A stretch of DNA of 64,000 bases from Termitomyces sp. T153 (lineage: Eukaryota; Basidiomycota; Agaricomycetes; Agaricales; Lyophyllaceae). The notes under the pieces were generated by a model. That model searched no databases and was not told where the DNA came from. It was given only the letters and a program-made list of their open reading frames with translations. Below, in pieces: positions 26,529 through 59,839 of this stretch; position 1 is the first letter of the stretch, and each line of letters starts with the position of its first letter. Location of the stretch: assembly GCA_018296165.2 (NCBI GenBank), contig JACKQL020000005.1, positions 992,001 through 1,056,000 of the forward strand. Reading direction: 5' to 3'. The position numbers were made by a program, and so were the translations under genes.

Positions 26529-28596
26529 TTTACAAATGACCAGATGGTCATTGATGGAAGGGCAACTCCAGCTCATAAGTTGGAGCTGGAGGATGCCAAC
26601 AGCTGTGCATGACACTTGCACACAGTAAAGAAGTGGCATGATGAGTGGCCTTGACTCCCTGGTGGACTCAAGTGGCTCACTGTAGAGGAGGTAATGGATG
26701 AGGATGGAGTTCAAGTAACTAAGAGTCTACCCAATGATCACCCATTCTTGTTAGTATCTGAAGAAGAGTATCAAAGGAGTACTCTTCAAGAGGAGGGGAG
26801 AGTATGCCAGAAGGGTCGAGTTGACACTTCAAAGGCAAGGAAAAGGAAGATCTGGAACAGACCAATCCCAAAGCCTACCCTGGAATGGGCATATGATCCA
26901 TGCATGCCACAAGAGTGGAATCAGGTCATAGCTGACCTGACACAATAGGAAGGGGTAAGAAGATCAACCTTTGAGGACAAAATATATAGAATGGCTATGA
27001 AGGATGAAATATCCGAGCCTAGCAAGTTTGAATACTTGTAGAAAGAAGCAAGAGGCAGGATAGCTCATGGTCCTGCTCAGCTGAACATACCAAACAAATC
27101 AGAAATTTGTCTGATGGCCTTGCATGATAAGTATGCAAAGCCTATACCACCAGCAAAGTCAAACAAGGAAGAGCATTGCTCTTTGCTGAGAATAGTTGGG
27201 GGAAAGGCACAACCTTCTAAGCTATCAGAAGGCAATATTCCACACCTTTGACAGCAGTGGTATGACAAGTTCCAAGACATTGTCAATAGAACAAAGGAGG
27301 AACTTCCTCCTTGGCAAGAAGTAAATCATGAGATAAATCTCATTGATGAGTCCAAATGGTACTCACACTTCATGCTGAGGTGTCCTAAGTCACTTTAGCA
27401 GCAATTGTGGGATAAAATCAACTGCTATGTGTAGGCTAAGTGGTGGGAGCCATGTGCAGCCAACCAGGCTGCACCACTACTATGCATCCCTAAAAAGGAT
27501 GGATCCCTGTGGATGGCATTAAATGCTTGTCAGTGCAATGACAATACTATTAAGGATGTAACACCCTTACTGGACCAAGAGGTTATTAAGGAGGACATGA
27601 CTTGTGCACCAGTGAGGTCAAAAATTGACCTCACTAATGCATATGAGCAAGTGAGAATATGTACATTGGATGTACCTAAGACTGTATTCATGACCATTAC
27701 TGGAATGTATCACAGTAACATCATGCAGATTGGCTACTGTAATGTGCCAGCCACATTCCAATGTCTAATGATGTTTATCTTTGAGAATGTCATTGGCAAG
27801 TGGATGCATGTCTATTTAGACAACATATTTGTCTTCTCAGACTCCATTGAGGAACACAAGCAGCACCTCAGAGTAGTCTTTGAAAGAGTATATAAAAACA
27901 AGCACTACCTCAAATGGAAGAAGTGCAAGCTATATGCCAAGCATGTAGAGTGCCTCAGCTATGTAATTGACTTGCAGGGTATACACTCTAACATAGAGAA
28001 GTTGAATAGGATCCAGAAGTGGCACACTCCTAGAACCTACAATGACATTCAATAGTTCATTGAGTTGATGAACTACATCAGGAACTTTCTGCCTGATGTA
28101 TTTGCATACACTGGGTCACTAATGGCCATGATGCCAAATGGGTCACCATTTCATTGGCAACCCATTCACCAATGGTGTTTTGACATGATCAAGAGGATCT
28201 GCACCAAAACTCCAGTAATATGCCCAATTGATCCTTGACACAAGGATCCTATCTGGCTGATCTGCAATGCCTCAAAGACAGGCATTGGAGCAATGTATGG
28301 ATAAGGTCCAAGCTGGCAGAAATGTTGGCCAGTGGGATTTATGTCTAAAAAGTTCACTAATGCACAGTAAAATTATGCCATGCATGAACTTGAAACTCTG
28401 GCAATTTTAGAAGCCCTTTTCAAGTGGGAGGATAAGCTTCTAGGGTATGAGATTCATGTGATGACAGACCATAAAGTGCTTGAGTTCTTCAAAACTCAAC
28501 AGAACTTGTCACCATATAAACAATAGTGGACAGATTAGATGTTGAAATTTAATTTCAACATCACATATGTAAAAGGAGAGCTCAATAAGGTAGCGG
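26529..28596 (+). pseudogene. LTR-B reverse transcriptase and RNase H
   Basis: Pre-RT linker, then APLLCIPKKDGSLWMALN, SKIDLTNAYEQVRI and the catalytic loop VYLDNIFVFSDSIEEH (YLDN instead of YxDD). RNase H follows with NASKTGIGAMYG, HELETLAILEALFKWE and MTDHKVLEFF. At 28596 the sequence breaks inside GELNKVA, and DCLSHYFESD resumes at 39654. Confidence 0.92.
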
Positions 28597-29595
28597 TGAT
28601 GAGCCCCAGTTATTGCTGAGCACCTTTTTCGGCAGTTCGGACTTAGCGGCAGCTGACTACTTCGAATTTGACACAAGTCACAACACTCAGCGCACGGGAC
28701 TTAGCCCGAGGATTGGACCGAAGCACAAGACTCTAGTGACCACAAGACTTATCGATCACGGGGAACATCACACGAAGCCTGGAACTTGGGCCTGGACCAT
28801 CAAGGCCTAGACCCCCTTGGCAATGATTATTAGCGACCTTAGCGATCCTGGCGACAAAACGGCATTCCTTTACTATATATGGACATATTACCAGACACGT
28901 ATTGACATCGGACTCATTCTCTTTTTGGTTCTTATTAGCAATTAGTCGTTGCCAAGGCCTCACCTATGACTTTTTACTTAGTTACGGACTGACGCCTGGC
29001 ACGCAACCTAAACACAGTGGCAGACGCCGCCGCTAGTGGCGCTTAATTACTTACCTTCCCTTACTATACTTCGAAAACGTATAAATACTGCCTGCACATA
29101 GACATCACCCCATCGAATTTTACCATCGAATCACCATCATATCACTCCCCTATCTATAAGCTACCAGCTTAAAGGTTTCATTTACCTCATCTCTTTCCCT
29201 CATCTCGTCTTCGACCTTGGCTTAGCGACAAGCCTCTTCAACTTCGACCTCGACTTAGTGTGGTACCAACTACGGGTGCCAATAAACGTTATTTCAACTT
29301 AGTGACGCTAGCAATTGCGGCTAGCGACAAGTTTACGTTCGTCCTTCGATCTCAATTTTACTCTTACTGCTGTCTCTCTCCTTTATCCCCCCCCCGCCAC
29401 CGTTTCAGTTTTGCTGCGACTATCGTAAGCAGTGGTGATTCTCTTCAACTTCACTTCCCCGCCACCACTTTCGCTCTAGTTCTCTGGGACGGTTACTGAC
29501 TCGCCCTCAACTATTAACTTCCTACTGCCAGCTACCCTATCTAGTGACAAGTGTTAGGTTTCCTGCACGGCACTAGGTGGCATAGGAGCACATCA
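28597..29595 (+). repeat. LTR-C 5' LTR with promoter elements
   Basis: 999 bp, TGATGAGCCCC to CACATCA. TATAAATA at 29080-29087 is a likely core promoter and AATAAA at 29281-29286 a likely poly(A) signal, giving a U3 of roughly 500 bp. Directly after the LTR, TGGAGCCCACCGCG (from 29599) is in primer-binding-site position; I cannot name the tRNA. Confidence 0.95.
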
Positions 29596-29669
29596 TTTTG
29601 GAGCCCACCGCGAGGGGTGTTTAGAAGTTAACCATTCCACCAGAAACAAGAGCTCACGCAAAACGTCGC

Positions 29670-32316
29670 TTGAAAAACCCTTTTGAACCACCCCAGTCTT
29701 CCCTTTCGACCCCCCAGCATTCTTCGCCAGCAGCCCGTCCTCGACCCCTTGCCGACAAACTCAAAACTGCCAAAAACCTTCGCGACGTTAGCGAAATCCT
29801 TGCCGACTTCCCAGGTGCCCTCATAGAAAGTTTTCTCGACGCGCCGCTTTCACCTTTAACCCCAACCGACTCTGTATTTTTCCCTGAAGCTCACTCTATC
29901 CCCATATCGCCAACTATCTCCCGTCCTCCGCTAAATCTGACAATCGTTAACATGAACAACGACCCCGCTGCTCAGCGCGCTAGAATGCCACCTCACAATG
30001 ACACTACTGCACCTAAGTGGGATGAGAGTCGCCCTAGGGAACTCTCCCAATACTTCAAAGAACTGGAATACCTCTTCGCCGACTGCGGTATCGCTGACGA
30101 CACACAAAAGAAAGAATACGTGTCTCGATACGTTTCCTATGACACGGCAGAAACTTGGCTTGGCTTACCTGAATTTGGCGACAATATTATTATCGGCAAC
30201 AACGCCCCTCGACCCTACACTTACCAGGAATGGAAAGCGGCAGTGCTTAGGCTATACCCTGGCGCTGATGCTAGCGCTCGTTATAATCTTGGCGATCTGG
30301 AACGACTAGTTAACCAGTCTTTCAACAGCGGCTTAGCGACTTTGGGAAGGTTCTCTGACTACTACCGGGACTTCCAACGTATTGCTAGATGGTTACTCGC
30401 TAACGGCAAGCTATATCGTAACGAGGAACGTCGCTTGTTCCAACAAGGTATCCCCACATCGCTATGGTCTAAAGTCATCTGCCGCCTCGAAATCACCCTT
30501 CCCGATCACCATCCTGAGGACCCTTACGATGTTGACCAAGTCTTCGAAGGCGCTAAGTGGGTTCTAAAAGGAACGGACACTTCCACGACTAAGACCAGCA
30601 ATGGCACCACCGGCATCCATTCGCCCATCGCTAACCCGCCGACCATCCCTTCGCTGGCACCTAAGCAAGAAGCATTGGAATTAGCGACCACTACCGCAAT
30701 CGTCAGCGCCTTGGAACGATTGGAAGCCCTTCTAACCAGCAGTAACGCCCAACCTCGCCAACAGTTTGCTAACAGCACTTGCCACTTCTGCGGGGAAATG
30801 GGTCACACTATGGTCCAAGGCACTTGTATTAAGCTTGAGCAAATGATCAGACAGGGTAAGATCCGTCGTAACGCCGAAGGCAAGATCATTTTACCATCTG
30901 GTGCCATGATTCCCAACTATTCCGGCAAGTGACTATACATTGAACGCATTGAGGAATGGCACCGGCTTAATCCAGGACAAATTGTTACAGGCAGACTTTC
31001 TTCCAACGCTAACCCAGACCCAGAGCAGGCGGCTATGCAGCAGTCGCTAATACACGAGGTAATGCAACAGGACGTCGCCACAGGCCGAGTGCTAAGCAAG
31101 GAAGAACAGATCGAGGCTTTGGAATGCGAGCTATTTGCACTCCGGCAAAATGGCGAAAAATTCGACGGCGTACAAGTTCCCCGAGCGACTTACCAACCAG
31201 CAAGTGATGCTTCAAAGGCAACACCCTTGACCAGTGACCCTCCGGCAACCTCCACCCCTTCTGATTCAGCTCCAGTTCCTGCCACTAAGCCTGCTGACAA
31301 AGGCAAAGCACCTGAATGCACCGTTGCTAAGGAACAACCACCTGTCGCTAAGGAACCTGTTGCTCAGCCTCCTATTCATCCATTTTCTGGCCTCCCTAGT
31401 CGCTACGCCCCACCCGCTAACCGGAATTTTGCTGCTCCCGACAAAGCTAACGATGGCGCATATCGAACTATGCCACCCATCTACGACATCGAGCAATCCA
31501 AAGCGGTTTTCAAATGAGTCTTACGCACCCAGGTCACGATATCGGTTGGCGAACTTTGCTCTGTATCCCAGGACATCAGGAATCAGTTTAGGACAGCGGT
31601 TACGCCCAAACGATCGGTTGGCGCTAGCGCTAATACAGTACAGGACTCCAGCAACATTTTTGAAGAGATTTTGCCGACTTTCGCTATCGAAGAACCCCAG
31701 TTTTCGCTGGGGTCCAACGCTGATACCGCTAAAGGACTTACTGCGGACAAGGCACCATTTGCTTCAGTCGACCCTGTCGAGGCCTATATCGATTTGCTAC
31801 CCCCTGGAGAAGAGCCTGTAGTACTCACTGTCGCTAAGGAATCTCAGTCACTTCGTACCGTCATGATGCTGATCGACAATAAAGAGGAAGTTGAATGCAT
31901 TCACGACAGCGGTTCTCAGATTATTTCAATGTCCGCCAAAATTGCTAGCAACATTGGCTTATCCTATGACCCCAACATCGTGCTAAACATGCAGAGCGCC
32001 AACGGTACCATGGATCGATCACTGGGACTAGCTAGAAATGTACCATGCACTATTGGCGACGTGACGGTCTATCTTCAAATCCATGTTTTACGGTCTCCCG
32101 CTTACGACATCCTACTCAGTTGCCCATTTGACGTATTAACCTGAAGTACGGTTAATACAATTAGCGACATCGAAACAACTATAACAATCATGGACCCCAA
32201 TACTGGCGTACAGCGCACTATCCCTACTTTTCCACACGGCAAAACCAAGAGAAACAATTGTCAAAATGTTTGCTTCGAAACAGAGGCACCCCGTTGCTTT
32301 CATCGCCGGAGGCAAT
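29670..32316 (+). pseudogene. LTR-C gag and protease (frame with three TGA stops)
   Basis: One frame from about 29670 to 32316, with TGA at 30930, 31515 and 32142. The first ATG is at 29952; the frame is open upstream of it without an ATG. The capsid part includes YFKELEYLFADCGIADD and YTYQEWKAAVLRLYPGAD. A zinc knuckle reads CHFCGEMGHTMVQGTC, spacing C-x2-C-x4-H-x6-C rather than the usual x4. Then comes a Pro/Ala-rich linker and an aspartic protease with CIHDSGSQIISMS. All three TGA sit where related proteins, as I recall them, have arginine. An extra A in AAAA at 32241-32244 explains the frame change into pol. Confidence 0.9.
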
Positions 32317-35300
32317 GAAGAAGATAGCAACCTAGTGATCGTTATCAGCTATGACCATTCAACTGGTCTAGCGACGTGTATAGCTTCTTGTGATTTGGAC
32401 AAAGACATTTTACTTACTGATTCTAACACAGAGACTAATCCCGCGCTAGCATACCTTTACGCTACGGCTAGCGACATTTCTGATTTGTCCCTTCCACCTC
32501 GTTCTTATCTCGTTTCTACTGATGCATCTAATCCCTTGATTCTTGGACAGACTTTGCCCTTTGATACATGTGTTACGGACACTACCCCCACCTATGTTAA
32601 CATCCCATTCCCCGCTCAGTATGTCGCTAACGAACCTCCTAAGTGAAAAGGAGTACAGGTCAAGAAGAAGTATAAACCAGTCATCATGAAAACCAAACCG
32701 GTCGCCAGCCACGTTAGCGAAGACTTTCGAATCGAGCGTCAAGTTATAGGCGATCCACTAGCGACCATTCCTCTGCTTAACCCAAACCCGCCACCTTTCG
32801 TCCCGACAAAGCGATTCACCAGCAAGCGACAAGCGAAATTGGTTAGCGACCATGACACTGGGTTCCTCACTAGCGATGAAATCAACGTATTGGTCGATAT
32901 GGTCGCCAAGCAAGAAAAAGCCTTTGCTTGGGAAGATTCTGAATGAGGAAGTTTGCGCCCCGACTTCTTCCCGCCAGTACGCATACCAACAATCCCGCAT
33001 GTACCTTGGGTTCAGCACAATTGCCCCATACCCCCAGGACTAGAAAAGGAAGTATGCGAAATTATTCGCAATAAGATCAGCGCCGGCGTCTATGAACCCT
33101 TGAATTCTGCTTATCGCTCGCGATGGTTTTGTGTTCTCAAGAAAAACGGTAAGCTCAGGATTGTACACAGTCTAGAGCCGCTCAACCGTGTCACCATTCG
33201 CCATTCTGGAGTACCACCTTTTCCAGATCACGTCGCCGAATCTTTCGCTGGACGCATTTGTGGTGCCACTCTCGACCTCTACGTTGGCTATGACAAGCGA
33301 CTTATCGACCCAGCATCACGTGATTTAACAACATTCCAGACTCCGTTTGGCACTCTTCGCTTAGTAACCTTGCCAATGGGGTGGACCAACTCTGTGCCTA
33401 TATTTCACGATGACATTACCTTTATTCTGCAGCCAGAGATACCCCACAACGTGCTCAGCTTTATCGATGACGTTGGCGCTAAAGGACCCAAGGACTGGAA
33501 GATCGTTAACGGTAAACCCGCTAAGCATCCCGCTAATCTGAACATCCGCCTAGGGCTCTGGGAGTTCTTTGAACTTCTTAACAGGATCCTTCAGCGGATG
33601 AAATATTGCGGTGGCACTTTTTCCGGTCACAAACTTGTTCTTTGCGCCCCGACATTCAAGATTCTCGGTCACATTTGTACTCCTAGCGGTCGAATCCCCG
33701 ACAAAAGTCGCCTAGCGCTAATCGAGCGATGTGGTCCTTGCAAGTCACTATCGGAAGTCCGCGCCTTTTTAGGTACCGTTGGGGTGCTAAGGATCTTTGT
33801 CAAAAACTTCGCCCATCGAGCCCATAACCTGACGAAACTTACTCGCGTTGGCGTCCCTTTTGAGTTTGGTCCCGATCAGATTAATGCTCAACGTGACCTC
33901 GTGAAGGCCTTACAAGACGCTAAGCCCCTTGTTCCTATCAACTATGAATCGCCTGACCCCGTCATCTTAGCGGTCGATACGTCGTATATAGCGGTCGGAT
34001 ATTACCTTTGCCAGTGTGCTAGCAATAATCGCAAGGAGCGCCGCTACAATCGTTTCGGGTCAATTACACTAAACGACAGAGAAGCATGATTCAGTCAGCC
34101 TAAGTTGGAGCTTTACGGCCTTTATAGAGCGCTACAAGCTTTATGGATGTACCTCATTGGCGTTAGGAACCTCATCATCAAAGTCGATGCTCGCTACATT
34201 AAGGGTATGCTCCAGAACCCCGACATTCAGCCCTCCGCTAGCATGAACCGTTGGATTATGGCAATTCTGATGTTCCACTTCGAGCTGGTGCATGTCAAGG
34301 GGACTTTCCACGGCCCAGATGGTCTGTCGCGGCGCCCGCCACAGCCTGATGATCCCCCTGTCGACGATAGCGACAACTCTGTCTATGAGGATTGGATTGA
34401 TTGTTTGCATGAGTTCATACACCAGGTCCAGTTACCGCTGCCGCTCCTTCGCCATCTCTCAACGGCCACAAGTCGCTTATTCCCTGTGGCCGATCTTGGC
34501 TGTTCGCCTACTTTAGCAACTTTTGCCAGCGACACCGACACTGCTCCACGATTAGCAACCAGCGACGATATAACCCCCCTCCGAGACGATGGCATCACTA
34601 CTTATAGCAATGTACCCCGCAGTGCCAAAGCTACCACCAACGATGCCTGTATACTCTTAGTTGAGAAATGGCTTCACAATCTAATCCGACCCGAAGGCTT
34701 TAGCGACAAAGATTATGCCACTTTCGTTTGCTACGCATCTATGTTTTTCGTTACGGGAGGCAAACTTTGGCGAAGAAGTCGAGACGGTGCTCACAAGGTG
34801 TTCGTCCCTATTGCCAGTCGCTTACGGGTCTTGAAGGCGATGCACGATGACTTGGGACACAGAGGCTTCTTCGCTACTCGCTCTGCTCTTCTAGAACAAT
34901 TCTGGTGGCCCCAAGTTAGCGCCGACATCATGTGGTACCTTAGGACCTGCCATCTCTGTCAGATACACCAGACAACTAAAGTGCTTATTCCGCCAACTGT
35001 CGCTACCCCGGCGCCTTTGTTCAGCAAGATATACGCCGATACCATGTTCATGCCGCCCTCCAATAAGTTCAAGTACATCATCCAAGGACGTTGTTTGCTA
35101 ACTCATTACCCGGAATTTCGCATGCTCACCCGAGAAAACACCGAAGCTATCGCCAAGTGGCTATACGAGGACGTCATTTGTCGTTGGGGAGCACTTAGCG
35201 AAATCGTGACCGACAATGGACCCCCGATCCTAAAGGCAGTTACCTATTTGGCGAAGAAGTATAACTTACACCATATCCGGATCTCTGGTTATAATAAGCG

Positions 35301-36039
35301 CGCTAATGGAATAGCCGAGTGGCCTCACTTCGACATTCGCCAAGCCCTTTTCAAAGCGGTCGATGGCGATCAGTTTAGGTGGAGTACGGCTACTTACTCG
35401 GTCTTTTGGTCAGAACGTGTTACAGTGCGCAAGCGAATGGGTTGCTCCCCTTACTACGCGATGACCGGTACCCACCCTCTCCTGCCTGCTGACATAGTTG
35501 AAGCAACATATTTGCAACCGCCGCCAAACTCATTATTATCAACCACCGATCTCATAGCCCGCCGAGCAATTGACCTTCAGCGCCGCCAAGAAGATCTCGA
35601 CCGTCTGCATAGCCAAGTGCTTAGCGCCCGTCGCCTGGCTGCCATTTGCTTCGAGAAAGATCACGCCGCTACGATTCGCAATTACAACTTCAAAACAGGC
35701 GACCTCGTACTAATGAGGAATACGAGAATCGAAGTAACGCATAACAAGAAAATGAAGCCGCGATACCCAGGCCCACTTGTGGTAATCTCTCGCAACTGTG
35801 GAGGAGCTTACATTCTTTGCGAACTAGATGGCTCAGTTCTACATCGCCCTGTTGCTGCCTTCCGCTTAATCCCCTATCTCGCTAGAGAACACATAACCGT
35901 GCCTAGCGACACTTTCGACATCGACACTTCGCGTCTCAGAGAACTGGAACAAACCAAACTTGTTGACAACAATGACACTGGCAAAAACGCCAGTGAAGAA
36001 GAAAACTACCTTTTGCTAGGCCTTAGCAACGAATCTTAA
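32266..36039 (+). pseudogene. LTR-C pol: reverse transcriptase, RNase H, integrase
   Basis: One frame to TAA at 36037, with TGA at 32644, 32944 and 34087. The RT holds VLKKNGKLRIVHSLEPLN, ATLDLYVGYDKR, LPMGWTNSVPIFHDD and the catalytic FIDDVGAKGP. RNase H/connection holds AVDTSYIAVGYYL and, past the third TGA, FSQPKLELYGLYRAL. The integrase has a zinc site (HDDLGHRGFF, CHLC), then YADTM, IVTDNGPP and NGIAEWPHFDIRQ, so the catalytic D, D and E are all present. It ends with a C-terminal barrel-like tail, with no chromodomain seen. Apart from the three TGA it looks intact. Confidence 0.93.
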
Positions 36040-36471
36040 CTCTGCTTCGTTTCTTACCGCTCTCATCTCTACTACCCAGAAAAACCATCAACAATTACTT
36101 TACAAAACCTAAGTCCTTTTCGTTTCGTTACTCTTTCATTTTTGATACAGTTAAAAAGCCTTTCACAGACACTTTACTTTACTACTGTCTTGTTTCAATG
36201 CTGCGCTAGGCTATTCTGTCGCCAGCGCTCAGCACGCCTCTAGGGGTAATTCGCCATGATGATCTACTGAGCGTTTGCCTTCAAGATGTCGCTAGCATTA
36301 GGCGACAGTCGCTAGTATGCCCAATTGATTTTTTGCTTTCTTTCTTCTGTTTTGTTTCACTTTCTGATTGCTCGCCAAAGATACTATACATTTTGGAGCC
36401 CCTTAAGGGGGCCAAGCTAGGTCCAAATTACTAACAAAAATATAAAATTTATATACAGGAGGCGACTGTCG
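36040..36471. other. LTR-C spacer between pol and the antisense gene
   Basis: The gap between the convergent 3' ends of pol (plus) and the accessory gene (minus). It is AT-rich, with an ATATAAATTTTATATT-like palindromic stretch near 36442-36458 that could serve 3' end formation for either gene. Confidence 0.5.
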
Positions 36472-38477
36472 CTAAGCATCAAGGTCAGCGTCATTGTCAG
36501 GAACCTCCATCGCCTCCGTCTCCTCCCAATCCCCCTCACCGATGTTGTTCTCCTCCTGCCAGGCCAGGAAGGCCTGGCAGTCGCGTCAATATCCCGCCAG
36601 AGTCACTAGCGTCCGCCTAGCGACTGTGTAGCAAGCCCGTGCCGCTAACAACTCCTCCCTCGCCGCCTCCAGCTCCCTTCGGAACCGTTGTTCCACTCCC
36701 GCTGCCCTCTCGTCGAAGTCCAGTAGCGACGCCGCCGACGTTAGCGGCGTCGGCCATCTGAGGTCCTCGCCCAGCCACTCCAGCTCGTCGTCGCCCACCT
36801 GACGCAACGGCGTGTCACTCCATGTTCCCTAGCAAAGCGGTTAGCGATCAGGTAGCTAGCGGAAGAAAATAACTTACTCGTCGTACGACCTCGACCTCTT
36901 CAGCCCGTTCTTCCTCCTCAGTAGCGATGGGTACGGCCTCCACCTCCTCCTCACCCTTGATCTCCATGTCACTCGCCTCCACCTCGGCGACCATCGCCAA
37001 GGGAGTCGTCTCTCTCATCTCCACGTCCTCCCTTCCCTCCTCGCTGGCGACCGTCCAAGGTCGCTTAGCGCTAGCGACCGATGATGGGCTTGCGGCTCGT
37101 TTCCGCGCCCAGGGCGTGTCGCAGTCACTGTTGTTGGCGTCGTCGTCCTCGTCGCTCTCCACCGTCTCCCTACTCTTCACCCTAGCGCCTCCACTACCTC
37201 CAACCAAGCCCTCCTCCTGCGACGTCGGCAAGGTCAAGCTTGAACGCTTGACCTTGATCGGCTCCCCTCTCCTCGCCAGCTCCCTCTGCCTCTCCACGAA
37301 GGCCCTCGCACTCCTTACCAACGCCGCCTTGATCGCTATCCTCTTAGCGAATTTGCTGCCTGTGCTCCTCGATGACAGGCCGCTGTGCAAGCAGCTCTTC
37401 CTAGTGCTGTCGCAACGATAGCAAGGCTGGACCCCCGTGGGGTACCAGCAGCCTTCTGGGTCGTTATCCGCCCAGCAATTGTCGCACTAGAAAAAAGCGT
37501 TAGCAACAAAAAGAGAAAAGAACCGCTAAGTACTCACCGCTCCTTGCGTGCGCTTATACTCTTGCCGCTTCTCTAGTGACACTGTTACCTTGCCCTTGGC
37601 CTTGTCCAACTTCACTCCTGCTCCCAGCCCCATATCCACCACCGTCGTCGTCCTTCGCCATTGAAGGAGCGTCGCCAAGCGCTTGTCGGTAAACGATTCT
37701 TCAACATGATCCTGCAGGAAAGGTTAGCGGTTGTCGCCAAGAATCAGCGAAAGGAAAGAAAATGACTCACCTCAATATCCTCGTCCTCCTCATCTTGTGC
37801 CTTTGCCTTTCCTTTCCCCTTCCCTTTGCTCTTTGGGGTTGTCGCCAATTTTGGCGACGTCGCCAACCCCCTAGCGACGCCACCAGCTGCAGCCTTGGGA
37901 GTCGAGGGGCCCGCCTCTTGAATGTCCCCACGATACGCCGCCTCTTCGTTCCTACAACCCTCGCTCCGTCCCTCCCCCCTCGCCACCGCTAACGCACCTA
38001 CCGGGTGCTGGAAGAGGAACTGGTCATTCGGTGACAAGTCTTCAAAGAGCTAACGTACCTTAGCGGGGTCGCTAGCACTAGCGACTGCCGAGGCACTTAC
38101 CGTCATTCCCGCCATGAGATCGTCCATCAGGAACTCCAGCAAAGGGTCGATTGGCGCCTAGCGATCGTATTAGAAGTTGGCGCTAAAAGGAAGAAAAGGG
38201 AACTTACAAAGTGAACATCAAAGGGGCGAACCCATTCTTCCTCCTTGTACTTCTCATATAACTGGCGACACTCCTTCTCGACAGTCGCCAACTCCGGCCA
38301 CTCGACTCCACTCCCCGAGGTCTTGAACCACTGGAGCCACATCTGAAAGATGGCGGTGACCACCAAGCAAGGATCCTTCGCCAACGATGCGCGGGCCACC
38401 GCGAGCAACCTGTCGACCCGATCGAGGAAGGCATGGGCCATGGTAATCTTCTCAAATTGGGAGGCGAGATCGGACAT
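36472..38477 (-). CDS. Antisense accessory gene of LTR-C: Cys6 zinc-cluster-like protein, six exons, with one premature TGA
   Basis: Exons on the minus strand: 38477-38208, 38157-38101, 38049-37771, 37711-37538, 37486-36878 and 36828-36472. All junctions are GT-AG, every exon is in phase 0, and they total 1746 nt (581 residues). The start is ATG at 38477 (MSDLASQFEKITMAHAFLDR). Exon 3 ends in a Lys/Gly- then Glu/Asp-rich stretch. Exon 5 opens with six cysteines spaced C-x2-C-x8-C-x8-C-x2-C-x6-C (CDNC...GC...PCYRC...SC), like a Zn(II)2Cys6 cluster, followed by a basic region and a long acidic tail. TGA at 36588-36586 cuts the last exon; the same frame continues as RDCQAFLAWQEENN to TAG at 36472, so TGA likely replaced CGA. 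It is neither gag, pol nor env. I recall similar cysteine-cluster proteins as abundant hypotheticals in basidiomycetes. Its role is unknown; DNA binding or regulation of the element is inference. Confidence 0.8.
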
Positions 38478-38650
38478 AGCGATAAGATTGAGAGGCTAGA
38501 AGAGATTAGATGGTAAGGAAGGGGGATGATGAAGTTCAAGCGATACCGCCAGCCACTGTTATTCGAATCCCTTTGGCGCACGGACCAGGCGATCAAGCAC
38601 GTGACTTTTGGGTTGACTGAGGACAGTCAATATTTCAGTACGGGGGAGGA
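38478..38650. promoter_or_regulatory. Gap between the antisense gene start and the 3' LTR, with polypurine tract
   Basis: 173 bp. The plus-strand purine tract GGGGGAGGA at 38642-38650 primes second-strand synthesis. The minus-strand promoter of the accessory gene must lie here or in the 3' LTR. No clear TATA box is visible on the minus strand. Confidence 0.6.
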
Positions 38651-39649
38651 TGATGAGCCCCAGTTATCGCTGAGCACCTTTTTTGGCAGTTCGGACTTAG
38701 CGGCAGCTGACTACTTCAAATTTGACACAAGTCACAACACTCAGCGCACAAGACTTAGCCCGAGGATTGGACCGAAGCACAAGACTCTAGCGACCACAAG
38801 ACTTATCGATCACGGGGAACATCACGCAAAGCCTGGAACTTGGGCCTGGACCATCAAGGCCTAGACCCCCTTGGCAACGATTATTAGCGACCTTAGCGAT
38901 CCTGGCGACAAAACGGTGTTCCTTTACTATATATGGACATATTACCAGACGCGTATTGACATCGGACTCATTCTCTTTTTGGTTCTTATTAGCAATTAGT
39001 CGTTGCCAAGGCCTCACCTATGACTTTTTACTTAGTTACGGACTGATGCCTGGCACGCAACCTAAACACAGTGGCAGATGCCGCCGCTAGTGGCGCTTAA
39101 TTACTTACCTTCCCTTACTATACTTCGAAAACGTATAAATACTGCCTGCACATAGACATCACCCCATCGAATTTTACCATCGAATCACCATCGTATCACT
39201 CCCCTATCTATAAGCTACCAGCTTAAAGGTTTCATTTACCTCATCTCTTTCCCTCATCTCGTCTTCGACCTTGGCTTAGCAACAAGCCTCTTCAACTTTG
39301 ACCTCGACTTAGTGTGGTACCGACTACGGGTGCCAATAAATGTTATTTCAACTTAGTGACGCTAGCAATTGCGGCTAGCGACAAGTTTACGTTCGTCCTT
39401 CGATCTCAATTTTACTCTTACTGCTGTCTCTCTCCTTTATCCCCCCCCCGCCACCGTTTCAGTTTTGCTGCGACTATCGTAAGCAGTGGCGATTCTCTTC
39501 GACTTCACTTCCCCGCCACCACTTTCGCTCTAGTTCTCTGGGACGGTTACTGACTTGCCCTCAACTATTAACTTCCTACTGCCAGCTACCCTATCTAGTG
39601 ACAAGTGTTAGGTTTCCTGCACGGCACTAGGCGGCATAGAAGCACATCA
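38651..39649 (+). repeat. LTR-C 3' LTR
   Basis: 999 bp, the same length as the 5' LTR with no indels. By hand count there are 24 differences, all transitions; 22 lie in a CpG of one copy or of the inferred parent. TATAAATA is at 39134-39141. Confidence 0.95.
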
Positions 39650-49929: not shown

Positions 49930-51530
49930 GCATTGCCAGGGAAAATTTAACAAGCATCAGGATTATCAGAGAGTAGATGCCATGCACCATAGTTGTGAGT
50001 ATGGTGTCCCTTTTACTTCTGGGGCAAATTGCTGACCTTTGACAGAATTGTCTATGGCTGCAATGAGTTCATCCAGCAGCTCTACTCATGTAGGAGGCCC
50101 AGAGCAGGTCAGTCAAGTGGCTCCACTGCCACTGACCCATCCCACAATGTCAAGTTTGAATCCAGGGACAGTCCAGGTTGTTCTGAAGAGGCAAAGGGTG
50201 CCACAGAGAGAGGTGATGCTGGAGATATTTTCAGGGGCATTGGGGTGGGCACAAGGTCCCCCAATGTTGGAGTGGTGCCAGAACAAGGCTCCAGTGAGCC
50301 CTCAACTCTTTTTGCAGTGTTTGCTGATCAGTTCTTTTAGTGCACCCTCTGTACCTAGTAGAGGGAGCCATATAAGTTTAAGAAGCCTTCTGCAAGATCT
50401 TGCCATAATATGTCAGTCTGTCTTCCATGCCACACAAGGCATAGTAAGTGCTCAGTTTTGCTAGAGCAACATGTGGCCTGCATTGCTATAGAGCAGGGGT
50501 GGGAGGAAAGCTGAGTGAGGGAACAGTTGGGGGAGGGGGGGAGGACCAAGGCATTAGAGAATGGGGGCTTGGTGAGGAAGGTGAGCCTACTATGGGGAGG
50601 TTGCAAGGAGGAGTAGTCGAGCAAGCAGGATAAGAGAAAGAGGAGGGTGTCCCCACTCCTAGTGGCTGAGCTTAACAAGAGGCCCCAAGCCAAGTCATCA
50701 ATGGCAGGCCCTCCTGGGCCTCACATGTACTCCCCCAGCTCGAAGACACTAATGGGGTGTCCATTAAGTTCTCCTGAGCCTGCACCTTTGATCACTAAAA
50801 TGTTCTTTTGTCAACAGGTGGAGGGCTTATCTAGAATGCTGACAATATGGGAGGGAGAACTCTGGAGAGCAGGGGAGGATTGGGACCAGGTGTGGAGGGA
50901 GAGGGACATGTTATAGCAGGACTGCAATACTGCTGTACAAGTGGCTATAAAGCAGGCATTAGAGGTGCAGGATTTGCAGGAGCATTTGGCACAGTTGAAA
51001 ACACAGTCCATGAAGGAGGTAGAGAGGCAGTGAAGCTTGCAGGAGGGCAGCTCATCCCAGGCAGAGGCAGAGGCCAGCAGGTGGCAGGAGAAGTAGTTGG
51101 CAAAGGAGGTAGCCTTGGGGCATGCTGGAATTTTGCATAAGTGTTTCACTTGTTCCTTCCAGAACTTGTTAATGGGGTTGGGCCAGGCTGGATCTGCAAG
51201 CACTGGATTCTATTGGATGGGGCATCTGCTGCATTGGCATCAATCCAGGACAGGTTGGTGCAGATGCCCAAGGATCATCTGCCAGAGTTGGGACAGGAGG
51301 TGGTGAGGATGAGGCAGCTGCTGGCAGAGCATTGGCAGTGCAACACAGTGGCCCTAGAGTCATGGTGGGAGGTAGCAGCAGATGTGGAGGAAGTGCTGCT
51401 AGGGCTTGCAGAGGTCTTAGCAGTGGTAAAGTGCAAATGAAGGTGGACTTAGGGGTCAGGGCAGTGGGGGAAGGAGTTCTAGAGAGGTTGGATTCTGTTT
51501 TTCTTATTGTGCCATGCTTTTCATAGTCAC
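49930..51530 (+). pseudogene. Accessory gene of LTR-D, antisense to its pol, decayed
   Basis: Plus-strand frames between pol and the 3' LTR: 50039-50464 (Ser-rich start MTELSMAAMSSSSSS), 50811-51030 with a coiled-coil pattern (RMLTIWEGELWRAGEDW, VAIKQALEVQDLQEHLAQ) and 51141-51440 (QDRLVQMPKDHLPELG, WWEVAADVEEVLLGLAEVL). The last block matches my memory of abundant hypothetical proteins in agaricomycetes ending in a SWWEVA-DA-EALPGL pattern. It is not gag, pol or env. Stops and frame changes show decay. Position and orientation mirror the accessory gene of LTR-C, but the sequence is different. Confidence 0.6.
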
Positions 51531-53699
51531 ATCCTGTAATATTTTGTATTTGTATAGCATGTACCTATTTTTCTTTGGTTCTCTGCATAAGGCTGATGTG
51601 AAACAAAGAAGATTTCAGATTCAAGTGAAAAAATAAGAAATAAAACATGCAGGGGGTTCCTTGGGGGAGATGAATCCCTAATGAAATCCAGAGGCAGGAG
51701 TTTTGCTCACTAATTCCATCTGTATTAGCTAGTCCCAGAAATGCTGGGGCTTGGTGGAGCGTTGCAGACAAGGGTTTTGGAGTTGGGCAGAGGTGTCTAC
51801 AGGGCTTCTAAGTGCTTTCAAGGTGTCAGACTGAGATCATAGGTAGGGTCTCTTTAGGCTCAGAGTTAAGTTGAGTGCTTGTGATTGGGCTTGAGGGAGG
51901 ATCTCTGGGTCTTGGAGTGGTGTTGGTTGGGTCAGGTGGAGTTGCCAGAGGTCCAGCTGAAGGGTGAGCATGCTTCAAGTATGCTTGGCAGCAGTGTTGA
52001 TTTTGTCCTAGAGGAGTTGAGAAAGGGGGGCAAAAGTCTCTTGACAACTGTAAGAACAATGGGGTGGAAGTCATCCTTGGGGCAGGGTAGGCTGGAAATG
52101 AGAGTCCTTGGCGGCATAGTGAGGGGGAGCTCTGGGGTTGGAGTTGTTGTTGTAGTGGACTCAGCAGAGAACTGTTTTACATGCCAGCTATGCTGTTGGT
52201 TAGTTAGTATAAGGGCAGAGATACTTTCTCAAAGTTTGATTTGCTTATTCTTGTGGTCTGTCAACCTCTGAGTGTGAAGAGGTTGTGGGTTGATTTCAAG
52301 AGCAGAGAGTGTCTGGAGGTTTGCATTTTGGCAGGAGTGTGATTGGGTAGAGGTTTGCTGAGCTCTAGAGTATTTATATTTTGTTGGAGACATGCTTGGT
52401 CAGGGGTTTGCTGTGTTCGAGAGTATTGGTGGAGGGGCAGTGGGGTTCCAAGGTGACCCATCTTAGTGGGTTCTCTTGGTCCAGAGCTGGGACTTGCAAG
52501 TTTGGACATGCTATATGACGTTTCTTCTTATTCCTGGCCAAAGATGAGTTTAGAGATGAGTAGAGGAGTCTTACATATTTCTGGCATCCTCATTGCTTGT
52601 GGTGTTGCTGGAGTTTGTCAGGATGAGTATGTTCGAAGTCCAGGGCATGGGTTCATCCTTCTTGGAGTAGGAGTTAGTGGTCCAGAAACAGCACAGAGGT
52701 TGATTGGTAAGTAATTCTTTTTAGCAGAGTTGCTTCTGGATGAGGTGCAGAGTGGGGATGGGTTTGCCATTCTTGGGTTGTCTTTCCTAGGATGGGAGTT
52801 AGGAGTTTGAATTTGATGCAAGTGTTGGCTGGTTGGCAGACTCTTATAGTACAAGCATTAGTTGGGGTGGAGTAGGGAGTGGGTTGATGCAATTGTTGGT
52901 TGGTTGGCAGACTTCTGTGGTATGAGCATTGGTTAAGGCAGGGAGTGGGTTGATGTGATTGTTGGCTAGTTGGTGGACTCCTAGGATACAAGTATCAGTT
53001 GGAGCAGGGAGTTGTTTTGGCTGCTGTGTTGAGCAAGGAAGGAGTTTGGAGTTGCTGTTCCATAGTTTTGTTCTTTCTGGGAGTGGGAGTGGGTGGTCTG
53101 GAGGCAGTGTAAGGAGCAGGTCAGTTGCTGGCTCTTTGGCAGAGTTGCATTGAGGGTTGTATTGGTCCAGCAGTGGACTTGTCCCTTCTTAGGGTGGAGC
53201 CAGCAGTCTGGAGCCAGCACAGGAGTTGGTTGGGGTGCTGGCTTGTTGGTAGAGCTGCCTCTTGGAGTTTGTTGTGCATGGGTGGGGTTAGTCCAAGAGT
53301 GAGCTTTGTGGGTTGTGTCTTCTTTAAGAGTAGGAGCCAATGGTCTGGGGTTAGCATGGGGGGCTGATTGGGTGTTGGCTTGTTAATGGAGTTGTCTTTA
53401 GAGATGGTGCTGAGTGGAGGAAGAGGTCCAGGGATTTGTTTTGTTGGTCCATTCTTTCTAGAGCAGGAACTAGGAGTCTGGAAGCAGTGGAGAGAGTAGA
53501 TTGGGAGGTTGGCTCATCAATGGAGTTGCATTGGAGGTTGTGCTGGGCAAAGAGGGGGGTTCAGAGTGGGGTTTACTTTCTCATTCAAATCAGCATGACA
53601 TGTAAATTTTTAGTGGGGGTTATCACTGAGTGGCAGAACTCATTCTGCTTAGCCCAAAAGGGCTTTCTTAGGTACTTATCAGTTATCTGGCAGGAGTGT
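51531..53699. other. LTR-D internal region without clear genes
   Basis: G/T-rich on plus. Minus-strand frames are Pro/Gln/Ser/Thr-rich and look like low-complexity remnants rather than domains. It presumably held the RNase H/integrase part of LTR-D pol, now unreadable, plus a repeat block at about 52800-53010. Confidence 0.45.
52815..53010. repeat. Degenerate ~70-bp minisatellite
   Basis: About three imperfect units containing TTGGTTGGTTGGCAGAC, a GAGCATTGGTT-like core and AGGGAGTGGGTTGATG. Looser related units continue to about 53560. Confidence 0.65.
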
Positions 53700-55100
53700 T
53701 AAGGCTCTTTTAGGTTGACTGTGGGGTCACAGGGGCTGAGATTGTTTTTTGGAGGTTCTTGGGTCAGCAAGCAGGCAAGTGGCAGAGTTGTTGAGGGCAG
53801 TGGTCCCAGCAGGTGTATTTCAGTTGATCCCCTAAGAGTTGAATAGGTTGGATGGTCACCCCACTGCACAAAATTGTTATCCACATTGAGAGGGAGGTTG
53901 TCCATAAATATTGGAGGGTGGCAGGGGAGTTGGTCATTTGAGGGCATCACTTGATACTCAAAGGAGGCCATAGCAGGTATGGGAGTGATCTTCCATTCAT
54001 GCTCCAGAGCAGTCCAGAGGTCACTATAGATGGAGTCAGAAACATGTCTTGGCACTGAAGGGGCAGTCAACAAGATTTTTGATCAGAGGAAGTGAGTACC
54101 ACTTCTGTTGAAGGGCTTTCTTGATTCTCTGCTAGTCAGGGCAGAGTCAGAGGAGCCATTCATTGTTCTTGGTGGCAAGGCTAAAGCTCTGGCAGATGGA
54201 GTTGAGTTGCATGATGTATTGCCAAGCTTGTGGGGGACTGTTTTGAATGTCTAGAGTTTGTTTTTTTACTGAGTAATTGATTTTGTATGAGGGGTGGGGG
54301 GGGGGAGGATGACAGCTTGGTTGTGACTCTGGTGGTGGAAGTTGGAGCACATGATGTCCTTACTCATTGATGGGTAGAGGTGGGAGTGGCATTTTTTCAA
54401 TTTCAACTCAGCAGTGAGTGGTGATGAAGAATGCTACTCTTTTCTTAGAGAATACATCAGCAAACTTATGGTACTCTGAAGAAACTACTTCATATGGGAT
54501 TTGTTCTTCTGTTGCTCTGGCAGTACAGCTCCTGCATGTGGACATCTTTTGAATTGATGTTAGAGAGTTTCCAGATGGGTGTCAGAGTCAGGATGGCAGG
54601 GTCCAGAGCTGTGCTGCTAGGGTCCAGAGTTGTGTAGAAGGGTTTGGAGTTGTCTGGAGTTATGGGTCAAGGCACCTCAGGCCTTTTTGCTGATTCCTCT
54701 GGGCATTGAGGGAGGCTTTGAAGAGCATTGAGTTTCTAGAATTGTTGGTTGTTTTTGAATTGATTTGGTGAGGAGAAGCCTCCAAGGGGTGCTCGTAAGT
54801 GCGTTCTTCATTGTTGAGGCTTCAGGGTTTGAGATGGTTGGGTGTTGAGTTTGTAACAGTGGTTTCAGAGAAGTGACAGTGGGGTTCTTTACTTCCTTTA
54901 AAGAACATGTCAGCAAGTTCATAATACTCTGAAGGAACTACTTCATATAGAATTCTCTTTTTCCTATAGTTTGTTCTGGTGGAGTAGCTTCTGCACCTGG
55001 GTGTTCTTTTAGTAAGGATAGTACAATTGGTAGTTGAAGGGCAGAGGTCCCATCTTATGAAATGCATGTGGAGGGGGCAGTGTTAAACATTTGGATGCCA
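53700..55100 (-). pseudogene. LTR-D pol: reverse transcriptase remnant
   Basis: Reading minus: VVPSEYYELADMFFKGSKEP (54990-54930) and a second similar YHKFADVFSKKR (about 54520-54480) match the EYHEFADVFS linker before gypsy RT. SLPLIKNLVDCPFSAKT at about 54110-54060 and FEYQVMPSNDQLPCHPP at about 53960-53910 match the RT fingers and the FEYxVMPFGLxNxPxxFQ block. Stops are dense and no YxDD is readable. Confidence 0.72.
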
Positions 55101-56389
55101 GAGGTTCCAGATCACTTGGGAGGGGGTGTCAATGTAATGGCAGAGGGGTCTGGAGTTGTCTAGTATTGTGGATTGGGGTGCTGCAGTCCTTACATTGACT
55201 TCTGGGGTTTGCTAGAAAGCATCTTTGGGGTGTGTTCAAGGGAGCTGGAGCAGAAGTGTGTCTTCCTTCATTCTTTAGCCCTCTTGAGGTTTGGGAATTC
55301 CTTGGTATTGCTCTGGAGTTGCTGGAGTTGGGTCAGAGGTGTTAGAGCCTTGGGGAACTGGAGAAGAGGTAGAGGGGGGTGCATTCATGCTTGGAGACTT
55401 CAGTGTGGAGTTCATCCAGTCAAACATTGAGTGGGGTCAATGGCTAAATAACCAGAGTGATCCTAGCTGATTCTAGAGTTTGAGTTTGAGGTTGGGGGTG
55501 GAGTGCTGATCTTGGAGTCTTGACTTATTCTTGGAGGAGGGGGTTGTGATAGGCAGTGGTCGATTCCAATGATGGCAGAGTTTACTTCAAAGGGTTGATG
55601 TCCTCAAAGTTAGTTAAAAGCATTGCATGGAAATTGTATTGTCTATGGAGGAAGCATTGAAGGCTGGTGCTGTTGATTTGGGTGGAGGTGGTGCCATCAG
55701 AGAGTCATGTGCTTGGATATTGGTAGCACATGGACTTTGACAGGGCTGCAGTGACGTTGGTGCTGCTTTTTAGAGGAGGTGTGGCATTTTGGGAAGTTGG
55801 TCTAGAGTTATGCAGTTATTCCAGTTAGAGTGGGTTAGGGCCAGATAAGTTCAGAGGTGTTGGACTAGGAGGTTGGTGGTCAGAGGTCTCATTGTTGTTT
55901 GTTGGCAGGAAGAGTAATTTGTTCTTATGCAGCAAGTGATTGTCTCTGGCAGGGGTTTGCATTACTGTTAGGGAGATAGTATTAGTGAGGTGCCAGAGAA
56001 GTAGTTGAGCAATAGATTGATTTGTTACTGGGGTTGATTGGAGATGGAGTTGGGGATGTCATGGTCAGCCTTAGTAGGAGGCAAGATTGGCAGAGGGGGT
56101 GAGGGAGGTGCAGGAGGTGCAGGAGAGGATGGTGTAGAGATGATGTGATTGGAGTTGAGCAGAGAGGATGTCTGTAGAGAGAGCCATTTGTGTGGGGGTG
56201 TGACCAGAGCAGAGAGGACATTTGGTATCAGATCCATGACTTAATGTGCCTTGGCACACTGAGCAAGGCAAAACAAATCATAGTAGGTCTCAGGCACAGG
56301 CTAACCATAGGCATCAAGAGTTCTGGCAGAAGTGTATGCAGAGTTAATTGCACACATCACAAATGGGGTAAGGGGGAGTCTTGATATTA
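55101..56389 (-). pseudogene. LTR-D gag/protease remnant
   Basis: Only a Cys/His-rich stretch is recognisable: minus frame 56271-56071 has CSVCQGTLSHGSDTKCPLC followed by SGH (two CxxC pairs and a His), suggesting a zinc-binding nucleocapsid. The rest is eroded and I cannot place a capsid or protease. Confidence 0.45.
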
Positions 56390-57603
56390 TGTCAGATTCT
56401 GCTGACCATGGGAGCTCAGCTACACTGGTGATGAGCACCAGTTATCCCTGAGCACCATTTTTGGCATTTTTGGCATTGCAGACTTAGCAGCAGCTGACTA
56501 CTTTGTATTTGGCACAAGTCACAACACTCAGCACATGGGACCGAGCCCGAGAGTTGGACTAAAGCATGAGACTCTAGCAACCACGAGAATTATTGAGCAT
56601 GAGAAATATCACGAGGAGTCTGGAACTTGGGCCTAGATCATCAAGGCCTGGACCCCCCTAGTGACGATTATTAGCGACCCTAGCAATCCTGGCAACAAAA
56701 TGGCATTCTCCTACCATATATGGACAAATTATCAGACGCATACCTTTTTACTATCATTTTGTTTGCTGAGCTTACCCACATACTTGAACGGCGTCTATGC
56801 TTCAGGTGTTGACATCGGACTTGTTTCTTTTTGGTTTTTATTAGCAATTAGGCATTGCCAAGACTTCGCCTATGATTTTTCACTTAGTTACAAACTGACG
56901 CCTTGTATGCACCATAAGCACAGTGACAGATGCCATCGCTAGTACTTATTTGTATACTTTCACATACTATACTTTGAAACATATAAATACTGACTGTACA
57001 TAGACACCAAAAGACAGGAACAGAGAACCCCCTTCAGAGTTAACTAGCTGCTCTCTCTAAGCCTACCAGCTTGAGATTTCAACTTTGCCTTTCTTTCCCT
57101 TTTCTCGTCTTTGACTCCAGCTTAGCGATGAGCCTCCTTGACTTCAACTTTGACTTAGTTTGGTATCAACTGCGGGTGCCTATTTGCATTAATTTGACTT
57201 AGCAACGCTAGTGACTAAGGCTAGTGACTAGTGCATGTTCGTCCCTGGTTTTAGTCCTTCCCTTACCATCTTCTCTCTCCCTACTTGCCTCACCACCGTT
57301 TTGATGACCCCAGCTAGTGATAGTGACTTCTTTCTACTTCACCCCACATCTCAACTTTTGCTCTAGTTCTCTGGGACAGTTACGGATTCGCCCTCAACTA
57401 TTAACTTCCTACTGCCAGCTACCCTATCTAGTGACTAGTGTTAGGTCCTCTCTTTAGGTTTCCTGCATGGCACTAGGCGGCATAGGAGCACATCACTGGG
57501 CAAGTCCTTACTAGGTGGATGCAATGTTCTACACTGATAACTTGGCATTTGGAGAAGGTTCAGGACTCCAGATACTTATGAGGATAAGCAAGGAGGAGCA
57601 GTT
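56390..57603 (-). repeat. LTR-D 5' LTR remnant, containing an LTR-C solo LTR
   Basis: TGTCAGATTCTGCTGACC at 56390 and, after the nested LTR, CTGGGCAAGTCCTTACTAGG at 57496, matching other LTR-D copies to about 57603, where similarity stops. Confidence 0.82.
56425..57499 (+). mobile_element. Solo LTR of family LTR-C, long form (56429-57495)
   Basis: 1067 bp, TGATGAGCACC to CACATCA, with CTGG duplicated at 56425-56428 and 57496-57499 (ACTGG if the end is read one base earlier). It holds TATAAATA at about 56983 and a 66-nt segment at 56740-56805 that ends TTCAG and is missing from the LTR-C element. It also has 13 extra bases between two TTAGGT-like repeats near 57441. Confidence 0.92.
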
Positions 57604-57964
57604 ATGAATGTGCTGTTTCCATTTGAGGTGGTGTAAAATCAGTGTGTGTACTCTTATGAACTTATGAATTGCCAAAGAACATAATTTATGCCATATGGCT
57701 ACCTTTTTATCAGCATAGGCTTGGAGACCTTTTTTCCTGGTTAACATGGCCCTTTAAGGCTAGATTTCTATCTGCTTGAGGAATAGCAAATGGTCTACTC
57801 CATTTTATTGGCAACAAGCTGACATTCTTCTGTCCACCTATTCTGTTGTGCTCTTGTGCAGAGTTAGTACACCTAGTTGACTGGCCAGATTGGTGTACTG
57901 GTGAAGCAATAGTGAAGCAAATATGAATATGATATTAGAAAATTGATGTTACAGCAGTAGATGA
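57604..57964. other. Unassigned AT-rich stretch
   Basis: 360 bp with no gene or known repeat. It is the left part of whatever sequence the next solo LTR inserted into; it continues at 59042. Confidence 0.3.
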
Positions 57965-59046
57965 TGTCATGACCCACTCCCACACCTCTGGACCTCCCTC
58001 CAGATCACCCCGTCTCCCCATAGCACTTCCCAACATTCTCTCAACTCACCCCAACCTTTGTTGATCCATGGTGCCCACCCCAGCTAACTCCAACACTTTT
58101 TTGGCAAATCTTAACAACCTCCTGGCAAACCCCAACACATCCCTTGTGGGCCTCCTCGGCTCTCCCTCTCACTTACAAGGCCCTCACACCTCTCTGACAC
58201 TTCTCCTGGCCCAGACATACATCACTCGGCCACCTCCATGACCTATATGACCAACTCCACAACTTACATGACTACTCCAGAGTTCCCTGACAACTGCAGG
58301 ATGGACCACATTTCCATCAGAATATCACTGTGGCCTGCCCTCCAATCAGGACCAACACTCATCCACCCTGTGGGGCTCTGATGAGCCCTGCCATTGCAAC
58401 CTCAACCCCCAGAGAAGGTCCAGTAGTCAGTATATCAAGACGTGGAGTAGCATTTGTTACCTTAGTCTTGATATTACATTAACTGGTTACTTGTGTCTCA
58501 TGTTTCTTTCTGTTTCATCTTCTTTTCTATTTTTAGTCTTGAATCTATCTCTTTCCTCAGTTCTGTCTCATCTCATCTTTGTCTTGTCTCGACTGTCTCT
58601 GTTCCTTTTATCTCTCCTAAGTCCCCTTCATCTCTGACATCATTACAAACTCCATGCATATGCTACAACCTTCAAACATTCTTATGGCAACTCCAGATCT
58701 TGCCCTACACTCAGCCCCAAAACCCATCAGTCTTGATTGATCCCCCATCAAACTCTGGCTCTGCTCCCATCACTTGCAAAGCCTCTGCTTGCCCCACAGT
58801 CTATTTACACATCTACAAACTTGTTCCTGACACCCACCCAAGCCCAACATTTAATATACTTGGTCTTAGACTTCCCCAGACCACTCCAGACTTGCTTGGG
58901 CTGATCCTCCTGACTTCCCCTTGCAAGTCCCTATAGACTGCACCCACTCCGGAGCACTAGTTTATAAGCACAGGACATTGTGTCTGCCTAGTAAGAACTT
59001 GCCCAGTGTAGCTGAGCCCCCATAGTCAGCAGAACCTGACAGATGG
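57960..59046 (+). mobile_element. Solo LTR of family LTR-D, opposite orientation (57965-59041)
   Basis: 1077 bp, TGTCATGACCC to AACCTGACA on plus, the reverse of the 47756 copy. The duplication is GATGA (57960-57964) versus GATGG (59042-59046), one transition. The plus frame at 58493-58936 crosses LTR sequence and is not taken as a gene. Confidence 0.88.
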
Positions 59047-59832: not shown

Positions 59833-59839
59833 TTATGTC

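Follow-up and report, generated by a model that had tools for sequence, protein, structure and literature searches.

The stretch of DNA analysed here, which we call the window, comprises 64,000 nucleotides of the genome of Termitomyces sp. T153; among the matches listed, its closest protein relatives are hypothetical proteins of Termitomyces J132, T112 and Mn162. A Ty3/gypsy-type element occupies positions 28597-39649 (Table 1). It is bounded by two LTRs of 999 bp each with 97.6% identity (24 mismatches, 0 gaps), has GCGG at both outer flanks, and carries on the plus strand the order protease, reverse transcriptase (RT), RNase H and integrase on which the assignment to Ty3/gypsy is based. The RT and RNase H scores of this copy lie below the Pfam cut-off, the zinc domain of the integrase scores well above it, and for the catalytic core of the integrase there is no Pfam match in the window copy. 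The observed/expected ratio of CpG is about 1 within the element and 0.11 immediately outside, so that it looks like a young insertion into old, CpG-depleted sequence. This ratio is 0.13 and 0.07 in the remaining window and 0.03-0.13 in seven copia loci (L059-L065); the low values outside the element and in the copia loci suggest heavy CpG methylation and deamination of the transposons of this fungus. At 28300-28596, RNase H-like words read by eye give the impression that the element was inserted in the remains of an older retroelement.

On the opposite strand, between pol and the 3' LTR, lies an additional gene. Here the preliminary description of this DNA had placed six minus-strand exons with clean GT-AG junctions, all in phase 0, and this anatomy is borne out: the integrase frame ends at 36039, the LTR starts at 38651, all five introns have GT-AG borders, and the coding sequence runs for 1746 nt to its final stop. 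The 581-residue frame given there is not open in the window copy, in which an in-frame TGA at 36588-36586 (codon 544) leaves 543 residues. The stops in the gag-protease frame and in the antisense gene mark this as a decaying copy; better copies of the family exist elsewhere.

Table 1. Positions of the element, its antisense gene and the TRGCGA sites in the window
Feature	Position	Strand	Evidence
5' LTR (TGATG...CATCA), 999 bp	28597..29595	+	LTR-LTR comparison
Motif array TAGCGA, TAGCGA, TGGCGA, 9-bp period, 5' LTR	28831..28854	+	LTR alignment
gag-protease frame, with stops in the window copy	29625..32144	+	CCHC E 0.08 (weak), aspartic protease E 2e-5
Reverse transcriptase / start of RNase H; 1 motif site	32947..34089	+	weak matches, E 5.5e-5 and 6.5e-4
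End of RNase H (weak) and integrase	34090..36039	+	H2C2 zinc domain E 1.7e-15
Antisense exon 6; long helix predicted in homologue; premature TGA 36588-36586	36472..36828	-	
Antisense exon 5; six-cysteine module first (37486-37391), then basic, then acidic stretch	36878..37486	-	
Antisense exon 4	37538..37711	-	copy alignment
Antisense exon 3, starts LFEDLSPNDQF	37771..38049	-	copy alignment
Antisense exon 2	38101..38157	-	copy alignment
Antisense exon 1, ATG at 38477	38208..38477	-	copy alignment
Dispersed TRGCGA/TCGCYA, 81 sites (40 on +, 41 on -)	28597..38650	both	word count
3' LTR; its first part is upstream of the antisense gene	38651..39649	+	LTR-LTR comparison
Same motif array, 3' LTR, about 410 bp upstream of the antisense ATG	38885..38908	+	LTR alignment

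Conservation of the antisense gene and its protein

The antisense gene has 43 matches in the genome, corresponding to about 40 copies with 79-100% identity (77% in short pieces), of which 31 were aligned; nine were left out, and L002-L008 were dropped as duplicates of L009-L015. Exon lengths differ by multiples of three in all 31 aligned copies, while introns 1, 3 and 4 range from 48 to 61 nt, intron 2 always has 51 nt and intron 5 has 49 or 50. GT-AG borders are present at all five introns in 28 copies, the three exceptions all falling at intron 1, the ATG is kept in 29, and the frame is open to the final stop in 14, with 575-582 residues. In most of 12 rows inspected, CTAAC- or CTAAT-like words stand close to the intron 3' ends, which we take to be where a fungal branch point would be. 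With frame-preserving indels, variable introns and retained splice sites, the structure of the gene is far beyond chance, and the argument that introns can survive in a retroelement if their gene lies antisense to the genomic RNA is supported for this resident gene.

Between 38100 and 38008 (gene offsets 377-470) the sequence allows either of two overlapping introns, 377-428 and 419-470, with mutually exclusive stretches of 14 residues, and predicted proteins of Termitomyces T32_za158 likewise exist in two forms, containing LWTELSPDS or VSDPPAP; alternative splicing at exon 2/3 may be old. The form of some NCBI models, which keeps 377-419 and splices out 419-470, is less likely to be the main one because distinct changes fall 1/3/12 by codon position in offsets 428-470 as against 7/2/7 in 377-419. 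Both forms may be used, given the constant length of intron 2.

Other copies of the family carry the gene as well, at no fewer than 55 of the 68 places that bear an integrase: in these 55 it lies within 4 kb downstream on the opposite strand (never on the same strand), and at 13 none is found among the matches listed. Inspection of three of these 13 revealed one gene, one deleted remnant and one place with nothing. A further 54 of the 108 RT matches comprise 20 with the gene, 33 with none among the matches listed and one with a same-strand match at 6.3 kb. Conversely, 48 of 127 gene matches have no pol within 7 kb among the matches listed; one of them, L039, does adjoin an integrase match, and L040 and L044 have none in the stretch inspected. 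The copy L041 (C5:361000-364200) has an open pol and an antisense gene with a large internal deletion, and may move with the help of other copies.

The cysteine spacing C-x2-C-x8-C-x8-C-x2-C-x6-C, already read from the window protein in the preliminary description, stands; 55 of the 166 proteins retrieved show it, and many of those that do not are partial or decayed. Distant homologues with 28-42% identity occur in Termitomyces T32_za158 and T159_Od127; among them, the six-cysteine spacing is retained in P0067, P0068 and P0070 but not in P0069. Among the matches listed in three protein searches none comes from outside Termitomyces; two of these searches scored about 8000 candidates, so that distant relatives may be missed. 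The proposed membership of the protein in the Zn2Cys6 family found no support. Zn2Cys6 proteins have the spacing C-x2-C-x6-C-x5-12-C-x2-C-x6-8-C. The antisense protein resembles them in having six cysteines followed by basic residues, and a second half C-x2-C-x6-C with K/R, but its first loop is x8 instead of x6 and contains acidic residues. The window protein matches no Pfam family at E<=1, nine family members show no Zn_clus at E<=10, and a genome scan with PF00172 gave 21 matches, none at a listed copy of the antisense gene; spacing and profile searches both reject this family.

In AlphaFold predictions for a homologue, N-terminal helices and a long C-terminal helix have fair to high confidence, whereas the cysteine module is modelled at low confidence, residues 257-303 scoring below 50 in one model and about 42-62 by blocks in another. 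A Foldseek search with the first model gave no PDB match at E<=0.001 (best E 0.6), a sequence search of the PDB returned a single weak and irrelevant match (E 0.64), and no known DNA-binding fold was recognised in the antisense protein by Pfam or Foldseek.

Selection on the protein was estimated in two ways. By the Nei-Gojobori method, dN/dS of the antisense gene is 0.14-0.18 in comparisons between classes and 0.25-0.47 inside the most diverged one. To allow for the fast mutation of CpG sites here, we also used a context-matched omega, for which 300 shuffles redistributed the same changes at random, each to a site that matched in base and CpG context. The comparison of L009 with L029 has 70 replacement changes where 136 are expected, and none of the 300 shuffles fell below 122. 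In intact copies from two subfamilies omega is 0.24 (L009-L029) and 0.23 (L013-L029) for the antisense gene and 0.12-0.14 for the integrase of these same two pairs; for L009-L013 the values are 0.35 and 0.37, respectively. When an intact copy is paired with a decayed distant one, omega of the antisense gene is 0.32-0.38 (four pairs); seven less diverged pairs with decayed copies among them give 0.57-0.93, and the integrase gives 0.66-0.95 in three pairs with decayed copies. Low values in intact pairs and near-neutral ones with decayed copies imply that selection is at work in active copies and weakens once they die. Purifying selection (dN/dS below 1), for which the preliminary description had called, is present, and of the three outcomes that it named beforehand as refuting its proposal, two, namely absence of the gene from other copies and dN/dS near 1, did not occur.

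That the antisense transcript works as an RNA, through double-stranded RNA or interference, with the open frame being incidental, is very improbable. Antisense RNAs can regulate LTR elements, as described in part of the literature on them (PMC7264820, PMC7175516), but the constraint here is at the protein level (omega about 0.24), the indels preserve the frame, the splice sites are retained and the six cysteines are kept in distant homologues.

A short motif dispersed over the element

The element is rich in one short word. TAGCGA is the most over-represented of 2022 6-mers, with 46 occurrences against 5.0 expected (z 18.3); the next ranks are taken by its overlaps and then by TGGCGA, and the context extends the consensus to TRGCGAC. 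For comparison, the highest-ranking word has z 4.1-9.9 in ten other 10-kb stretches, of which three are host, two copia and five window sequence. TRGCGA is about 8-fold over expectation in the 10-kb element, in all frames, with a density of 8.1 per kb in the window element and of 15.9 and 13.3 per kb in two stretches of a recently multiplied subfamily. In 12 host loci its density is 0.8 per kb, 0.9 times expectation. Seven of eight copia loci, which are mostly CpG-poor, have none, and the eighth has 3 against 1.6 expected; L040, L043 and L044, old CpG-poor members of the lineage, have 0-1 sites. The even strand counts (Table 1) suggest double-stranded DNA rather than RNA as the target; in the LTR all five sites are on the plus strand. 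The 173 bp separating the antisense gene and the 3' LTR contain 0 sites, and the RT core (33097-34096) has one in 1 kb at normal CpG content.

The copies L029 and L030 and five more (at C26, C50, C67, C106 and C139) have near-equal match scores and an open pol, and the antisense gene is open in L029 and L030, the two of these seven whose sequences were inspected. These seven probably stem from a burst of very recent date, and the subfamily to which they belong has the highest motif density.

CpG-depleted surroundings make a naive comparison exaggerate the contrast, and the enrichment could be suspected of arising from the codon usage or the CpG content of a young element. In a test that keeps protein and codon usage fixed, the motif count exceeds all 1000 synonymous-codon shuffles in eight of nine coding sequences, the nine including related copies of the same genes. 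Three integrase sequences have 21-27 sites against 5.1-5.8 in the shuffles, three copies of the antisense gene 20-23 against 6.2-6.7, a fourth copy 14 against 4.1, and gag 20 against 5.6; the exception is the RT part, with 1 against 0.5. Old copies may hold a trace of the motif: eight stretches of the lineage contain its deaminated form TRGCAA at 2.5-5.5 times the expected frequency. In five of them (L039, L040, L042, L043 and L044) TRGCAA stands at 2.8-4.9 times expectation versus 0.9-2.1 for the control TRACAA, while in L031, L034 and L036 TRACAA is likewise 3.8-6.2 times over expectation, as an artefact would have it. TRGCAA is at 0.8 times expectation in eight copia loci. With the synonymous shuffles, first-order Markov controls, CpG-rich host loci and the reversed-pattern control all speaking against it, an artefact is hardly to be believed.

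The motif is also better retained than other CpG words. Between intact subfamilies 26 of 28 sites are retained in the antisense gene versus 43 of 72 control CpG words (p 7e-4), and 18 of 21 versus 29 of 62 in the integrase (p 0.0015); a further comparison of intact subfamilies gives 26 of 29 versus 40 of 65. The effect is weaker in the reverse direction (26 of 35 versus 42 of 77 and 18 of 27 versus 29 of 68; p 0.037 and 0.029), and towards decayed copies the motif is not better retained (16 of 35, 11 of 35 and 15 of 34; p 0.12-0.61). The control words have the same degeneracy, and these p values are to be read with the fact that words and copy pairs were chosen after the motif had been seen.

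Close pairs of the motif number 529 in the genome of 72.4 Mb versus 183 for the reversed pattern. Among the first 50 of these 529 pairs, 35 lie within 6 kb of listed matches of the family; the other 15, which may include unlisted copies, amount to about 2.3 per Mb over 6.7 Mb versus 2.5 per Mb for the reversed control. A palindromic double motif, GTCGCTAGCGAC, occurs at two places in the genome versus three for a scrambled control, and the sites are not so arranged. These counts bear on the idea that a host DNA-binding protein recognises TRGCGAC, that the element has collected such sites so as to attract an activator or insulator of the host, and that the antisense protein acts otherwise, for instance in nuclear entry of the integration complex or in integration targeting. 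The tie between protein and motif is drawn indirectly, and GENE23 of the plant element Grande is nuclear with a role likewise unassigned in the parts of the source that treat it (PMC7264820). However, the motif is at expectation in the 12 host loci, and pairs away from copies show no host regulon, the samples being small. We regard a host binder as rather unlikely.

In each LTR three of the words form a regular array, and in the 5' LTR this ends 16 bp before a TATA-like TACTATATATGG that starts at 28871. Both window LTRs have all three words intact, as do 14 of the 19 young copies that were aligned. A fourth word, 13 bp upstream, occurs in 15 of these 19 but not in the window copy, and L039, L042 and L043 have a CpG-decayed form of the array. 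Its place directly upstream of the TATA-like box would also suit a negative regulator like HBZ of HTLV-1, which is a bZIP factor: the antisense protein would act on the LTR array and damp sense transcription, leading to latency, with the sites in the body serving as decoys or silencers. The anatomy is alike, HBZ being described as a spliced antisense regulator gene, expressed from the 3' LTR side and under its control, with a nuclear product (PMC10186651, PMC8622228). But site selection throughout the coding sequence exceeds the needs of a promoter repressor, and such a repressor seems unlikely to us. HBZ belongs to an animal virus, and its likeness to the Termitomyces gene is one of anatomy.

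Possible function and related systems

A binding site is the best explanation for a short word that is selected, dense over most of an element, even between the strands and arrayed at a promoter. The antisense gene is the only recognised gene of the element besides gag-pol, and its product has a conserved cysteine-basic module, so that the economical link is for the antisense protein to bind the motif. We give an even chance to the reading that the antisense gene supplies the element with a sequence-specific DNA-binding regulator of its own, possibly an anti-silencing factor like VANC. The element-encoded VANC protein of Arabidopsis VANDAL transposons causes loss of methylation and is associated with a dense short motif, according to the parts of the literature used here (PMC5735166, PMC10398659). 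The role in regulating the element or in countering silencing that had been suggested for the gene gains support from the dispersed, selected motif. Speaking against a self-encoded regulator are the DNA-binding fold that the searches failed to recognise, the low model confidence of the cysteine module, the almost motif-free RT core, the motif-free 173 bp next to the 3' LTR, the equal retention of motif and control words towards decayed copies and the near absence of sites (0-1) from three old CpG-poor stretches; moreover, co-occurrence of motif and gene is also expected from common descent, and a host protein could bind.

For such a regulator the six-cysteine and basic part of the protein would bind TRGCGAC, and the predicted N-terminal helices and a C-terminal coiled coil would allow multimers across many sites. 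Occupancy of the motif could keep the chromatin of the element open, as VANC does, or set the strength of the LTR promoter. The antisense position would let the introns survive the RNA cycle and would make possible a promoter of its own near the 3' LTR, so that the protein may be made from copies in which sense transcription is off. The spread of the motif over the whole body, beyond the promoter, would favour a role in chromatin, yet the sequence is compatible with VANC-like opening, activation or HBZ-like repression of the LTR alike. More tentatively, we consider a self-encoded anti-silencing system in which the new six-cysteine protein would recognise CpG-centred TRGCGAC, placed in the LTR promoter and, by silent changes, in the genes except the RT core; copies would in this way carry a label of self and withstand CpG methylation. 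The CpG-depleted surroundings would fit CpG methylation as what transposons face here.

Like the VANC system, the Termitomyces element has an element-specific short motif at high density (PMC5735166), as judged by the host, copia and reversed-pattern controls. The targets of VANC as described there are mostly non-coding tandem repeats, whereas the sites found here are mostly dispersed, many of them in coding sequence, and transposons of Arabidopsis are compared with a fungal retrotransposon for which binding is putative. Should the protein indeed counter silencing, the element would represent a fungal counterpart of VANC in a retrotransposon. Reportedly, an antisense additional gene, brtn, was found in the Boty-like elements of Botrytis by Zhao et al. 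in 2011. This is likewise a fungal gypsy-type element with an extra antisense gene, the likeness resting on description; a motif is not mentioned in the parts of the accounts used for it (PMC8365987, PMC7264820). The plant aORF-3R genes, namely gene23 of Grande, those of RIRE2, ORF4 of Retand and ORF2 of PvRetro13, also lie antisense between pol and the 3' LTR in most copies, and the nuclear product of Grande is encoded by a gene with its own promoter; unlike the Termitomyces gene, they come with no mention of a six-cysteine module or a dispersed motif in the parts of that source concerned (PMC7264820).

Antisense extra genes of LTR elements are recorded there with their function unassigned (PMC7264820), and fungal DNA transposons are described as carrying TET/JBP dioxygenase genes, with no retrotransposon found to do so in the part of the source on which we draw (PMC12730594). 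Listings of the open-access literature contained no fungal LTR element with an antisense gene that is spliced or has a zinc cluster, and no retrotransposon that combines a spliced antisense gene with an element-specific motif in its coding sequence. The gene described here has protein-level selection, conserved introns and a candidate selected target motif, which makes its function directly testable by a binding assay.

Elsewhere in the window, three extra motif sites and an LTR-end-like word lie at 56672-57123 and around 57480, probably a fragment of a related LTR. At about 50054-60107 the words AACTCC and ACTCCA are strongly over-represented (z about 10); they are apparently unrelated to the element and possibly form a tandem repeat.
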